Below are positions 17,931 through 22,050 of a stretch of 41,631 bases of DNA, piece after piece. Positions within the stretch are counted from its first letter, which is position 1. Every line of letters starts with the position of its first letter. The notes under the pieces were generated by a model. It was given only the letters and a program-made list of their open reading frames with translations, had not been told where the DNA came from and made no database searches. Source of the DNA: Fonticella tunisiensis (GTDB lineage Bacteria > Bacillota > Clostridia > Clostridiales > Caloramatoraceae); contig NZ_SOAZ01000028.1 of NCBI RefSeq assembly GCF_004364155.1, forward strand, positions 1 through 41,631, given 5' to 3'. The position numbers and the translations under genes were made by a program.

Positions 17931-18542
17931 CTATAAATTGTTTAGTTTCTGAAGCCACTGTATCATAAAATTATATTGATAAAAATATTTAGCAAACTTA
18001 GAGGTGCCTATTGCATCTATAAGTTGACTCCTTTGAGGCATTATTCCCATAAGCGGGGTTACTACGGCGAAGAATATAAATATAAATATAGCAGCTTTAA
18101 CGACGCCTATAACAAGTCCTCCCGCAATATCAACATACTTAAGCGATGTCTTCCTTACCGTAATCTTTAGGGTATCCCTCAATATATTGAGGATTACAGT
18201 TGATATCATAAAAATACATATAAGCACAGCAATATTTATAAACATTATAGTTAAAGTATCCTCCATTGAAGAGTTTTTACTGTTAACAATTCGTATAAGT
18301 GCGAGGGTTGCTGGATTCATGCTGGACATCCTCTTTATAAACAAACTTTTAAGCGTATCATATATAGAGGTGTGTGTAATGATAAAATCAGCTGCTGCAG
18401 GTGATAAATTCTTAGCTATTATCATAGAAATAAATATTCCCGCTATGTTGAAAATAGACACTATAAACCCGTTCATCATTCCAGTCAAGGCTCCTGCAGA
18501 AAGAATAAGTACTATTGTTATATCAAGCCAGTTAATTCCCAT
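17931..18542 (-). CDS. CvpA family membrane protein
   Basis: The roughly 203-residue protein has four hydrophobic helices and the CvpA start pattern NWLDITIVLILSAGALTGMMNGFI. Later segments include the GGLVIGVVKAAIFI helix typical of the family. CvpA proteins were named for colicin V production, but their general role is envelope-related and poorly defined. I chose the ATG at 18542, seven bases after GGTGGGG. A TTG ten codons upstream gives an unlikely N-terminus. A 36-codon open frame without a good start lies between it and glnA. Confidence 0.82.
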   Translation of the reverse strand: MGINWLDITIVLILSAGALTGMMNGFIVSIFNIAGIFISMIIAKNLSPAAADFIITHTSIYDTLKSLFIKRMSSMNPATLALIRIVNSKNSSMEDTLTIMFINIAVLICIFMISTVILNILRDTLKITVRKTSLKYVDIAGGLVIGVVKAAIFIFIFFAVVTPLMGIMPQRSQLIDAIGTSKFAKYFYQYNFMIQWLQKLNNL

Positions 18543-18594
18543 ACAAACACCCCACCCATATTTATATATCAATTCTATTAAAGAATACTTATTT

Positions 18595-18885
18595 TTACAA
18601 TTTATTTTTAACTATTACTTCAATCAGTTTTTTTACAAGTTCATCTGTAATTGTATAGGTTATTTCAAGCCCATTTCTTTTTCCCTTTATTATCCCCTTG
18701 TTTCTCAATATAGAAAGATGCTGTGAAACTGTAGATTGAGGTATTTTAAGACACTCCTGCATTGTAGTTACGTTTTTATCCCCTTCCACATACAATCCTT
18801 TTAATATACACAGTCTTATAGGATGGGCCATAGCCTTTAATATTTCGGATATATCTTCTAAATCATTTAAATTATAATCGCTCAT
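18595..18885 (-). CDS. ArsR/SmtB-family transcriptional regulator
   Basis: The 96-residue winged-helix protein has AMAHPIRLCILKGL and the recognition region QECLKIPQSTVSQHLSILRNKGII, followed by the wing KRNGLEITYTITD. The ELCVC-type metal site of classical arsenic or cadmium sensors is missing, so it may sense something other than a metal. The ATG follows GAGGTG. It is divergent from ytvI, so the shared 113-base region may hold its operator. It precedes cvpA by about 50 bases. Confidence 0.88.
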   Translation of the reverse strand: MSDYNLNDLEDISEILKAMAHPIRLCILKGLYVEGDKNVTTMQECLKIPQSTVSQHLSILRNKGIIKGKRNGLEITYTITDELVKKLIEVIVKNKL

Positions 18886-18998
18886 ATCAACACCTCAAGT
18901 TTCATATTTTATATAATTTTAGAATAACACTTATCTTATGTCAATTATACAAAGCCGATATATATGATATAATTACATTATACGAAAGGAGGAAAAAT

Positions 18999-20042
18999 AT
19001 GTTTGATAAAGTTTTTTTAACTAAAATTAAATATATTGCAATTTTTGTAGTTATTTATACTATAATCTTTTTTCTATTTTTTTCCATATTGCCCTATATA
19101 TTTCCCTTTGTATTAGCATTAATAATTGCATACCTGACAAAACCCCTTACAAGGTTTTTAATAAAACGCCTGAGGCTTTCCAGAAGCCTTTCATCATTGA
19201 TATCCACTCTTTTAGTTTTTATAATTTTGTTTGTTATAATTTCTTCTATAATTTTTAAAGTTACAGTCGAAGCAAAGCAGCTTATAAGTTCTGCTCCAAA
19301 TCTTGATGTCATTAGAAAATTTTTCGAAAACAACATCGATAAATTAAGGGTCTACTATAGCCAAATAGATGCATCAATTATTCAAAAAATGCAGGAGCAG
19401 ATATCGTCGCTTGTTACAAAAACTTATGATATTATTGTAAATATTATAACTAGATTGTTCTCCCTTGCAATCGGACTTCCAGTATTATTTATGATAATAT
19501 TCATAACTTTTATTGCAACATACTTTTTCACAAGGGATATTTCCGATATGGAGGATAAATTTCTATCGGCCTTCTCTTCATCTGGAAGGGAAAAGGTTAG
19601 AAGAATATGGTTTGAAAGCAGTAAAATGTTTGGAAACTATATTAGGTCATACTCGTTAATTATATTTTTAACTTTTTTAGAAACATTAATTGGATTTTCT
19701 TTAATAGGTGTAAAATATTCATTAATGCTTAGTATATTATGCGCCATGCTCGATATTCTGCCTGTTCTTGGAATAGGGGCTGTATATTTTTCTCTTGCAA
19801 TAATATACATTGTAGCGCAGAATTATGCTACTGCAGTATTTATTATACTTTTATATATAGCTGTCACTGTTATAAGGCAGATAGTAGAACCAAAACTAGT
19901 CTCTTCATCCCTTGGCCTTCATCCCGTTGCAGTACTTGCAGCGATATATATAGGTATTAAAGCCTATGGGTTTATAGGAATGATTTATTTGATATTTCTA
20001 ATGGTATTTTATAATATTTTAAAAAAAGTAAAGATATTTTAG
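18999..20042 (+). CDS. ytvI: AI-2E family transporter, YtvI-like (sporulation membrane protein)
   Basis: The 347-residue protein has about eight membrane helices and the AI-2E/PerM family features: an early YIFPFVLALIIAYLTKPL segment and a soluble stretch near 90-150. A C-terminal block contains LDILPVLGIGAVYFSLA, RQIVEPKLVSSSLGLHP and IGIKAYGFIGM. Members called YtvI are associated with sporulation. The transported substrate is unknown. The ATG follows AAAGGAGG. It reads against replication and is followed by a hairpin leader shared with yyaC, another spore-linked gene. Confidence 0.82.
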   Translation: MFDKVFLTKIKYIAIFVVIYTIIFFLFFSILPYIFPFVLALIIAYLTKPLTRFLIKRLRLSRSLSSLISTLLVFIILFVIISSIIFKVTVEAKQLISSAPNLDVIRKFFENNIDKLRVYYSQIDASIIQKMQEQISSLVTKTYDIIVNIITRLFSLAIGLPVLFMIIFITFIATYFFTRDISDMEDKFLSAFSSSGREKVRRIWFESSKMFGNYIRSYSLIIFLTFLETLIGFSLIGVKYSLMLSILCAMLDILPVLGIGAVYFSLAIIYIVAQNYATAVFIILLYIAVTVIRQIVEPKLVSSSLGLHPVAVLAAIYIGIKAYGFIGMIYLIFLMVFYNILKKVKIF

Positions 20043-20047
20043 AATAT

Positions 20048-20138
20048 TAAACCTCCCTTTTGGATAAACTTTTTGTATATCGATGCACTTTTAATTTTTT
20101 ACATGTTTACCATCGATACAACTTGGAAGGGAGGTTTA
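20048..20138 (+). promoter_or_regulatory. Nested hairpin covering the yyaC ribosome binding site
   Basis: TAAACCTCCCTT (20048-20059) pairs perfectly with AAGGGAGGTTTA (20127-20138). An inner pair TATCGATG (20078-20085) / CATCGATA (20111-20118) extends the fold. The downstream arm contains GGGAGG (20129-20134), the only ribosome binding site for the yyaC ATG at 20143. The arm is followed by TTTTAT, so the same structure may also end ytvI transcripts. Confidence 0.6.
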
Positions 20139-20142
20139 TTTT

Positions 20143-20724
20143 ATGCTTCTATTCCGGCCTGTTCAATTTACAGTAGACAGTTCCAAGGCCGATGCATCAT
20201 ATTTATTATCCAGAGAAATAACCTCTTTAATCAAAAATTGTATGAATAAAGATATGACGCCTGTAATTTTGTGTATAGGTACTGACAGATCCACTGGAGA
20301 TTGTCTTGGTCCTCTGGTTGGAGATAAACTAAAAAAAAATTATCTAATGAAAAACATACAGGTATATGGCACATTGAATGAACCTGTTCATGCTAAAAAT
20401 CTTGATGATAACATCGATAAAATTTATAGAGAAATTTTAAATCCATTTATTATAGCTATAGATGCTTCACTGGGTAAGACTGAAAACGTTGGAAAAATCA
20501 ATATATTTAAAGGTCCTCTTTATCCTGGTGCAGGGGTTAATAAAAACCTTAAGCCCGTTGGAGACATTAGCATTACGGGAATTGTAAACATATCAGGTTT
20601 TATGGAATATATAGTACTTCAAAACACACGGTTATCCCTGGTTATGCAAATGGCAGATGTTATATCGTTAGGTTTGTATATGTCTCTTAGAAAATTAAAA
20701 GGGACACTAACCTATGTCTATTAA
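20143..20724 (+). CDS. yyaC: Spore protease YyaC
   Basis: The 193-residue protein belongs to the YyaC family, related to the germination protease (Gpr-like fold). The signature VILCIGTDRSTGDCLGPLVG is near residues 43-62, and NPFIIAIDASLG, PGAGVNKNLKPVGD and ITGIVN follow. Family members are linked to spores, but their substrates are not established. B. subtilis also has yyaC close to parAB. Its ribosome binding site lies in a perfect 12-bp inverted repeat. The last four bases overlap the convergent small lysine-rich gene. Confidence 0.88.
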   Translation: MLLFRPVQFTVDSSKADASYLLSREITSLIKNCMNKDMTPVILCIGTDRSTGDCLGPLVGDKLKKNYLMKNIQVYGTLNEPVHAKNLDDNIDKIYREILNPFIIAIDASLGKTENVGKINIFKGPLYPGAGVNKNLKPVGDISITGIVNISGFMEYIVLQNTRLSLVMQMADVISLGLYMSLRKLKGTLTYVY

Positions 20725-20737
20725 ACCTTAGTGTCCC
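20690..20737 (-). terminator. Terminator for the small-gene unit, inside the yyaC tail
   Basis: GGGACACTAA (20701-20710) pairs with TTAGTGTCCC (20728-20737). On the minus strand the hairpin is followed by TTTTAATTTTC. It overlaps the last codons of both yyaC and the convergent 39-codon gene. The plus-strand side has no T run, so it should mainly stop minus-strand transcripts. Confidence 0.6.
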
Positions 20738-20840
20738 TTGTCTCCTGTTTAAATAAAACCACTATCCTTTCATCTTCTCCATTATACTCTTTCTTCTTGT
20801 TCTCTTTCTTTTCCTCTTTTCTCTTTTTGATTTTTTTCAT
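20721..20840 (-). CDS. Small lysine-rich protein, 39 residues
   Basis: An ATG at 20840 follows a perfect AGGAGG, seven bases away, and opens a 39-codon frame. The N-terminal half is extremely charged (MKKIKKRKEEKKENKKKEY) and the C-terminal half is more ordinary (GEDERIVVLFKQETRDTKV). The stop overlaps the end of yyaC, and a terminator hairpin is embedded there. It lies 16 bases after the UPF0180 gene, so the two form a unit. I do not recognise the family. The lysine/glutamate-rich start could bind nucleic acid or lipid, but that is a guess. Confidence 0.65.
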   Translation of the reverse strand: MKKIKKRKEEKKENKKKEYNGEDERIVVLFKQETRDTKV

Positions 20841-20856
20841 ATTAACCTCCTAAACT

Positions 20857-21117
20857 TTAAAATAAAGGGGAATAATACCTGTGTTCAACCATATAAGCTA
20901 CATCCTCTACGCTTCTATTGTCAGCATTTATAAAGAATGAACCATTGTCTGCAGGAAGTGCTGCATTATATACATTTGCAAGGCCCATGTTCTTTTCTGA
21001 GTATATGTGTACATCCGATGCTATACCATCACTTATACTATATACTTCATATCCTAATTTTTTCAGGTATTCTTTAACTTCAATCAAATCATCTTGAACG
21101 CTTATTACCATATTCAT
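20857..21117 (-). CDS. UPF0180 (YkuS-like) small protein
   Basis: The 86-residue protein resembles the UPF0180/YkuS family. An N-terminal helix DDLIEVKEYLKKLGYEVYSI is followed by a turn region and the closing helix SVEDVAYMVEHRYYSP. Function is unknown. The ATG at 21117 is five bases from GGGAGG, and another ATG two codons later is also possible. It is followed by the small lysine-rich gene. The 355-base gap upstream holds repeat copy B and no gene. Confidence 0.75.
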   Translation of the reverse strand: MNMVISVQDDLIEVKEYLKKLGYEVYSISDGIASDVHIYSEKNMGLANVYNAALPADNGSFFINADNRSVEDVAYMVEHRYYSPLF

Positions 21118-21224
21118 TCTACCTCCCTGATATTATTATCCCTTGGAGGTATTAAGGTTATTCACATTTGCAGGGATATTCCTTCCGTTGAATTTCTTCA
21201 TTCCTTGATTGAAATTAAAGCAAT

Positions 21225-21408
21225 CCATTGTGCTAGTTCAGGGGCTGAAGGTCGATAAAAAATATATGAAATTCACATTTTTCAAATCTCGAGCCTTAGA
21301 ACTTCTTTGCTAAGCGTACTGGTAAATGAAATATATTTTTTATCGCTGCGCCTGTATGTAAATTTATCTGCTTTTATTCCAATTAGCTTTTCAGAGTTGC
21401 ACAACGAG
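21225..21408. repeat. Palindromic intergenic repeat, copy B, with flanking direct repeats
   Basis: The body matches copy A through most of its length, including AAAAAATATATGAAATTCAC, CCTTAGAACTTCTTTGCTAA and the complementary right arm. Terminal sequences CCATTGTGCT and GCACAACGAG are imperfect inverted repeats. The 10-base TTAAAGCAAT occurs immediately outside both ends (21215-21224 and 21409-21418), as expected for a target duplication. The right side carries about 30 extra bases compared with copy A. No open frame is present, so any movement would need a transposase in trans. Confidence 0.75.
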
Positions 21409-21449
21409 TTAAAGCAATAAATTGCGTTACTCTGAAAAACCATTGTAAT

Positions 21450-21482
21450 AAAAAATAGCCCATTTTTATGGACTATTTTTCT
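21450..21482 (-). terminator. Terminator after the DUF4446 gene
   Basis: On the minus strand AAATAGTCCAT pairs with ATGGGCTATTT (one G-T pair) and a T run follows. The hairpin overlaps the stop codon. Confidence 0.8.
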
Positions 21483-21985
21483 ATCGTTCTATTGTTGGTC
21501 GCAATCTTTATAGCAAGCTTTTCTTCATCGGACAAATCATATTTGGATAATCCCTTTTCAATTGGTTTTGCAAAAGTGGTGCTCTCGTTTCTTCCATATA
21601 TCCCTGTTATAACAAATCCATCGTTATTTTCGTTGAGCATAGCTATTGAAAAGCTTAGATCGCTTCCAACGTCATCAAAGGCCCTATACCTAACCACTGC
21701 GAATTTTTGAATTGACTTTTGAAGTCTCTCATCAATACTTTTATACATATTTTCTATGTTTTTAAAAACCTCTAAAGAATCATCAACGTTCTTTTTATAT
21801 TCAATAATCATGTCCTCTAGATTTTTGCCCGTTGAGCCCTTCATAAGCCTCTTGTATCTTTTTTCAATCCTGCTTAACTCCATACTGTTTAATATTTGTA
21901 AAATAATAAGTATAACCATTAAAATTAAAATTCCTATGACTATTACATAATCATAATTTCTTATAAAATCTATTATTGCTTCCAT
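21473..21985 (-). CDS. DUF4446 family protein
   Basis: The 170-residue protein has one N-terminal membrane helix (about residues 12-34), then a coiled-coil-like stretch. A conserved C-terminal block contains KFAVVRYRAFDDVGSDLSFSIAMLNENNDGFVI with a break at residue 20. This is the DUF4446 pattern found next to parAB in Firmicutes. Its function is unknown. It is last in the parA-parB-DUF4446 unit and is separated from parB by a parS site. Confidence 0.88.
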   Translation of the reverse strand: MEAIIDFIRNYDYVIVIGILILMVILIILQILNSMELSRIEKRYKRLMKGSTGKNLEDMIIEYKKNVDDSLEVFKNIENMYKSIDERLQKSIQKFAVVRYRAFDDVGSDLSFSIAMLNENNDGFVITGIYGRNESTTFAKPIEKGLSKYDLSDEEKLAIKIATNNRTIEK

Positions 21986-22050
21986 TTTTTCTTCTCCTTC
22001 TTTTTATTTTGTTATCTCTAAAGCATTAATTTTTCTACGTTTTCTATAAA

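Follow-up and report, generated by a model that had tools for sequence, protein, structure and literature searches.

A putative insulating hairpin with a nested forespore-type promoter in the leader of clostridial yyaC

The read-through hairpin of Bacillus subtilis sigG reportedly goes back to two original papers, Masuda 1988 and Sun 1991. Hairpins that mask the ribosome binding site (RBS) of transposase genes block impinging transcription. In B. subtilis, sigG (spoIIIG) lies behind spoIIGA-sigE, and the accessible part of the source describes a hairpin of 20+ bp, proposed to block read-through translation, that cannot form in the transcript from the gene's own sigmaF/sigmaG promoter (PMC5942855). 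In phage T4, according to the accessible sections of another study, I-TevI and other late genes carry an RBS hairpin solely on transcripts from upstream early and middle promoters, and the late promoter starts inside the hairpin, thereby freeing the RBS (PMC2988022).

As far as these partial sources go, the leader of yyaC in Fonticella tunisiensis resembles both systems. It shares with B. subtilis sigG a hairpin proposed to act against read-through from upstream and predicted to be absent from the own-promoter transcript, and with T4 I-TevI a promoter whose predicted start lies within the RBS hairpin. It differs from sigG in the gene concerned, in having its left arm in the promoter spacer and in the U-tract after its Shine-Dalgarno sequence (SD), while I-TevI belongs to phage genes with late promoters, and the accessible text on them describes no terminator part (PMC2988022). 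Like intrinsic terminators, the yyaC leader has a stem followed by a U-tract, and a terminator scan flagged the hairpin of one relative (L117), where it is compact with a short loop. Unlike them, its 3' arm doubles as SD, its loop holds the -10 element and, in the sequence analysed here, that loop measures 59 nt. The RBS-masking hairpins of transposases are a further parallel: stems of this kind occur at two genes of the same genome (L082 and L146) and at a Mutator-family transposase gene (L196). They differ in belonging to mobile-element genes. The principle is known from B. subtilis sigG and T4 I-TevI, within the limits of these sources. What looks new is that yyaC and yaaL employ it and that promoter, terminator and SD overlap; a literature search with most subscription literature outside its reach returned no paper describing a hairpin of this kind for yyaC.

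We consider it likely that the yyaC leader works as an insulating hairpin in which a forespore promoter is nested, masking the SD and probably also terminating transcription.

The yyaC leader of Fonticella tunisiensis

The window, that is the whole stretch of DNA analysed (41,631 nucleotides), carries yyaC 100 nt behind ytvI on the same strand, so that ytvI forms a co-directional unit upstream. Caloramator and Fervidicella are among the named relatives of this clostridium. The features are:

18946-18973 (+): sigmaA-like promoter of ytvI, a consensus match alone (10/12 positions, TGnTATAAT)
18999-20042 (+): ytvI, co-directional upstream gene, an open reading frame matching TIGR02872 (257 bits, cut-off 198)
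20042-20046 (+): GAATA, -35 of a sigmaF-type promoter by pattern match; GNATA is conserved in relatives
20048-20063 (+): left (anti-SD) arm, perfect at 20048-20059 and with G-U pairs to 20063, inside the promoter spacer 20047-20061
20048-20059 / 20127-20138: perfect 12-bp Watson-Crick stem of the leader, TAAACCTCCCTT / AAGGGAGGTTTA
20062-20070 (+): GGATAAACT, -10 of the sigmaF-type promoter, in the hairpin loop
20077 (+): assumed transcription start, placed 7 nt past the -10
20078-20118 (+): lineage-specific, ClaI-like inner hairpin, TATCGATG (20078-20085) / CATCGATA (20111-20118)
20123-20138 (+): right arm, containing the SD GGGAGG (20129-20134)
20135-20142 (+): U-rich SD-to-start spacer TTTATTTT, 7/8 T, a terminator-like U-tract directly after GGGAGG
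20143-20724 (+): yyaC coding sequence, ATG at 20143, matching TIGR02841 (210 bits, cut-off 85) and PF06866

An earlier, sequence-only reading had claimed that the SD of yyaC is buried in a perfect 12-bp stem. The coordinates were confirmed, and a 12-bp Watson-Crick run over the SD arose in 0/2000 shuffles of the 86 nt upstream with the right arm kept. The arms are 67 nt apart, and the stem reaches 16 bp when G-U pairs are counted (20048-20063 / 20123-20138). The predicted fold of 20000-20200 has -42.6 kcal/mol (z -2.9), 2/200 shuffles being equally good. In a genome sample of 840 kb (40 stretches and the window), 501 genes have an SD of 5 nt or longer, and 4 of them, yyaC included, reach the SD-helix score of yyaC. 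The leader is present in one copy in its own genome, and a repeat or mobile origin was rejected on that ground.

The left arm lies within the spacer of the motif GAATA-N15-GGATAAACT. We take this promoter to be of sigmaF type from its consensus, by which sigmaF and sigmaG are indistinguishable. Its -35 is touched by the stop codon of ytvI (20040-20042). The promoter emerged from a comparison of 120 yyaC loci, and it is conserved together with the stem in relatives. A B. subtilis table lists yyaC under sigmaF (PMC3416734). In Clostridium perfringens, one study reports that the region upstream of yyaC1 is active solely during sporulation, that yyaC1 is expressed singly and that its promoter acts late and depends on sigE and spo0A (PMC9332280). 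Because of this late, sigE/spo0A-dependent activity, early sigmaF control of yyaC1 is uncertain there.

The sequence-only reading had also proposed a switch between vegetative read-through and sporulation-specific expression, which is partly supported. The sigmaA-like element, with TGnTATAAT upstream of ytvI in 7/12 Caloramator-type regions, fits vegetative read-through as far as a consensus match can tell. However, the B. subtilis table places ytvI under sigmaE (PMC3416734), and read-through in the mother cell is therefore possible too.

The inner ClaI-like stem, likewise pointed out by that reading, exists in the window but is not conserved. The loop is extended here by about 42 nt, and this extension, which contains the inner stem, is missing from the 11 other aligned family members; a twelfth member, L053, has a long loop and, by eye, no such inner stem. 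This extension is the reason why the loop of the window measures 59 nt, and the window does not show a compact short-loop terminator hairpin (0 patterns in 18500-22000).

In the mechanism that we propose, the left arm fills the 15-nt spacer of the sigmaF-type promoter, the loop contains the -10 and the SD of yyaC serves as the right arm. Polymerase coming from ytvI, or from a class-V aminotransferase gene in other clostridia, would copy both arms, and the RNA would fold and bury the SD. In cases where a compact hairpin is backed by a U-tract, the polymerase would probably also terminate just ahead of the start codon. A start at the nested promoter would yield a yyaC message that lacks the left arm, would hence form no hairpin and would be translated. 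Since RNA with both arms would be blocked and the short RNA free, yyaC would stay silent unless its own promoter is used. Of this scheme, the stem, the promoter motif and its nesting, their conservation, the match of the arms across species and the U-tract are observed, while the transcript start, the sigma factor, the translational block and termination are predicted.

Conservation of the stem and of the U-tract

The 120 yyaC loci, from which a copy of the window (L001) had been left out beforehand, were reduced by 16 paralogs, 5 duplicates and one locus in which no SD was found (L070). In the 98 loci scored, the gene upstream of yyaC is co-directional in 50, divergent in 45 and undecided in 3. 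With at least 8 pairs over the SD at p <=0.05 as criterion, a stem is found in 43/50 co-directional and 7/45 divergent loci (Fisher p 1.6e-12), the rows being mutually related and orientation largely confounded with phylogeny (Clostridia vs Bacilli). Among the co-directional loci it occurs in 26/30 with ytvI upstream and in 17/20 with other genes, in one case a class-V aminotransferase (PF00266). Seven co-directional loci show no stem by this criterion (L008, L049, L067, L080, L103, L113 and L120), although L067 and L103 still show 7 pairs. L053 retains a stem with G-U pairs despite a divergent upstream gene. On inspection, at least two of the 7 divergent positives (L022 and L037) are trivial, as their left arm simply is the divergent gene's SD. 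A conserved CCTCC at about -80 in Bacillaceae was rejected as the same stem, as in L022 and L037 it is that SD.

Conservation in relatives had been named beforehand as a check on the stem, and the outer stem is indeed kept in them. Covariation was the other part of that check. In an alignment of the 12-row family, 93% of the stem cells pair, against 46-75% in slid controls. Covariation is modest: 1/12 pairs is double-changed (in 3 rows), which is no more than shuffles give, even though none of 500 shuffles reaches the covariation score of the alignment.

Across species, the position of the left arm shifts by some bases relative to the promoter. For this reason the MAFFT alignments of relatives (A2 and A4) were not used for pair counts, and a swap test took their place. 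It was run on 48 rows, namely 47 of the 50 co-directional loci (L008, L049 and L052 left out) and the window; L052, a copy of the window, stood in for it in the set for SD opening costs, and the per-genus test took the same 48. The spacer-SD helix scores 26.1 with a locus' own spacer, 18.7 with swapped spacers and 11.3 with shuffled ones, and it reaches at least 17 in 44/48 rows, against the shuffled mean of 11.3. Own spacers score above swapped ones in 19/20 genera (Wilcoxon p 6.7e-6). In L069 the stem lies outside the promoter spacer.

The spacer between SD and start codon contains 79% T in the 50 co-directional loci, compared with 32% in the 45 divergent loci and 32% in the 501 sampled genes. 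Unpaired tails beyond the helix end are 80% T in 22 loci. Since most relatives have a U-rich tract right after the right arm, termination is likely besides a translational block, and the yyaC hairpin probably ends upstream transcription in many species in addition to masking the SD. The sequence-only reading had expected messages from upstream to be untranslatable. A stem that buries the SD fits this, but the block need not be purely translational, as the U-tract makes termination likely too.

The yyaC2 paralogs (16 loci) have mixed stems, with p <=0.05 in 6/16. A second yyaC paralog at G000:C4:117634-118065 (-) (L123) and its relatives L124-L133 show G-rich SDs and a partial upstream complement beside TATATAT.

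The same design at other genes

The design recurs at sigG of the same family, where arms such as TCCCTTCGG/CTGAAGGGGA lie in promoter spacer and SD in 9/11 family loci, judged by eye from 30 loci fetched from 60 genomes. Because sigG of this family also carries a nested arm, sigG and yyaC may be using one device. At sigG behind sigE, G000:C5:22867-23703 (-) (L238/L302), the promoter reads GAATA-N15-GGAAATAAT, with TTCCCTTCGG against CTGAAGGGGA. A further case is ywmB (PF08680, DUF1779), one of the three other genes that reach the SD-helix score of yyaC, with the same architecture and the top SD helix among the 501 sampled genes. The genes ahead of it are presumably ATP-synthase genes, as named from their sequence. 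The stem over the SD of this ywmB, 15 bp in a sigmaF-type promoter, is at L277:11063-11111 (+), G000:C4 near 111,111.

Among the yaaL and ywmB loci (55/58 used, without L330, L365 and L370; a start was lacking in 2 and a promoter match in 5), a spacer-SD helix is present in 16/27 promoter-bearing loci of yaaL (PF10704) and in 2/21 of ywmB. These counts do not support a nested arm as a rule for all forespore genes. Relatives of yaaL behind recR-like genes have longer stems, and an sspH-type gene (TIGR02861, PF08141) shows the helix in one genome (L194). At yaaL (DUF2508), G000:C33:4349-4397 (-) (L098/L207), GAATA-N15-GGAAATAAT carries CCCTCCA against TGGAGGG. At sigG and ywmB, and also at some of the yaaL loci, the arm is present but the U-tract after the SD is missing; with sigG and ywmB lacking it, termination is not common to all cases.

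A first arm-promoter-SD pattern matched 17 times in the same genome against 20 in a reversed control. The pattern CCTCC..GGAGG..ATG, searched genome-wide, gave 26 matches vs 8 in the control. A tighter pattern in 60 genomes gave 79 vs 33 (summed from the table), but yyaC itself accounts for many of the surplus matches. The promoter pattern alone gave 79 matches against 61.

More tentatively, and as something possible rather than probable, these loci might be related forms of one clostridial composite element, present at yyaC, yaaL, sigG, an sspH-type gene and ywmB. A sigmaF/sigmaG promoter would be set in an intrinsic terminator, with the promoter spacer as its 5' arm, the -10 inside its loop, the SD as its 3' arm and the SD-start spacer as its U-tract. 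Within about 60 bp, it would end the upstream unit, block transcripts that escape and start the forespore gene. If the insulator reading is right, compartment specificity in sporulating clostridia would not come from sigma-factor specificity alone, as some promoters would carry an RNA insulator against their neighbours. This would explain how a forespore gene can immediately follow another gene with no separate terminator in between. An anti-SD in the promoter spacer would be a signature to find such promoters and predict their starts, and in laboratory clostridia the element could serve as a small insulated promoter of natural origin.

Among the presumed mobile-element genes with stems over the SD, L082 (G000:C1:237799) and L146 (G000:C3:177593) are short genes with similar N-termini and 14-bp stems, which we take from their sequence to be IS200-type transposases; L198, a 53-aa relative, has no Pfam match. 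The stem of the Mutator-family transposase (PF00872, L196) has 20 bp.

Opening of the SD and rival explanations

The sequence-only reading had held that a start inside the leader frees the SD, and had named no promoter. A promoter motif at a matching position fits such a start, but the calculated gain in the window is small. Over 48 loci, opening the SD has a median cost of 12.7 kcal/mol for the read-through RNA, compared with 4.5 once the spacer is scrambled and 2.9 for the predicted short RNA; in 45/48 the long and the short RNA are at least 3 kcal/mol apart. In the window, opening costs 9.0-11.8 kcal/mol in the long RNA vs 7.4-7.6 in the predicted short one; with the coding sequence included to 20220, one pair of ends gave 5.4 vs about 5 kcal/mol, so that the gap nearly vanishes, while taking the RNA from 19900 gave 8.6. 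The difference is small because the SD can also be masked in the predicted short RNA, by a second and weaker hairpin in which it pairs with the first codons. The freeing of the site is therefore better supported in the relatives than here, and the leader of F. tunisiensis may be a modified or weakened version of the switch.

Instead of both masking the SD and terminating transcription, the hairpin might mask the SD in read-through RNA without any termination, as proposed for B. subtilis sigG. This would suit sigG and ywmB of the same genome, with their nested arm and no U-tract, and also a loop in the window that is too long for the terminator scan. We nevertheless find it unlikely, given the T-richness of the SD-start spacer of yyaC, which extends past the helix end, and the scan of 18500-22000, in which the stretch from ytvI to yyaC showed no terminator pattern of another kind.

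The opposite case, an intrinsic terminator alone that ends the ytvI or aminotransferase transcript and pairs with the SD as a by-product, appears quite unlikely. The U-tract and the recognised L117 hairpin speak for it, but its 3' arm is the SD, arms that differ between species still fit their own SD, and at sigG, at ywmB and at some yaaL loci the arm exists without a U-tract.

It is very unlikely that the inverted repeat serves at the DNA level, as operator of a regulator bound around the -10. The -10 is indeed flanked by symmetric arms; however, the arms of yyaC, sigG and ywmB differ in one genome, each matching its own SD, and from one species to another the left arm is offset by some bases relative to the promoter.

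A regulated leader (riboswitch or thermometer) in the sigmaF transcript is highly improbable. The second, weaker hairpin in the predicted short RNA of the window would agree with it, but the median length predicted for the 5' UTR is 16 nt (48 loci). Such leader families were rejected as candidates, as a search of 19800-20400 with Rfam covariance models gave no match up to E 1.

Chance complementarity or a repeat-derived artefact can practically be dismissed, even if some SD complements are trivial, as in the divergent loci L022 and L037, since the single genome copy, the 0/2000 shuffles and the conserved matching arms refute it.

At the other end of the gene, an inverted repeat at 20701-20745 of the window, AAGGGACACTAA...TTAGTGTCCCTT, spans the last part of yyaC; it has a weak T tail and is perhaps the yyaC terminator.
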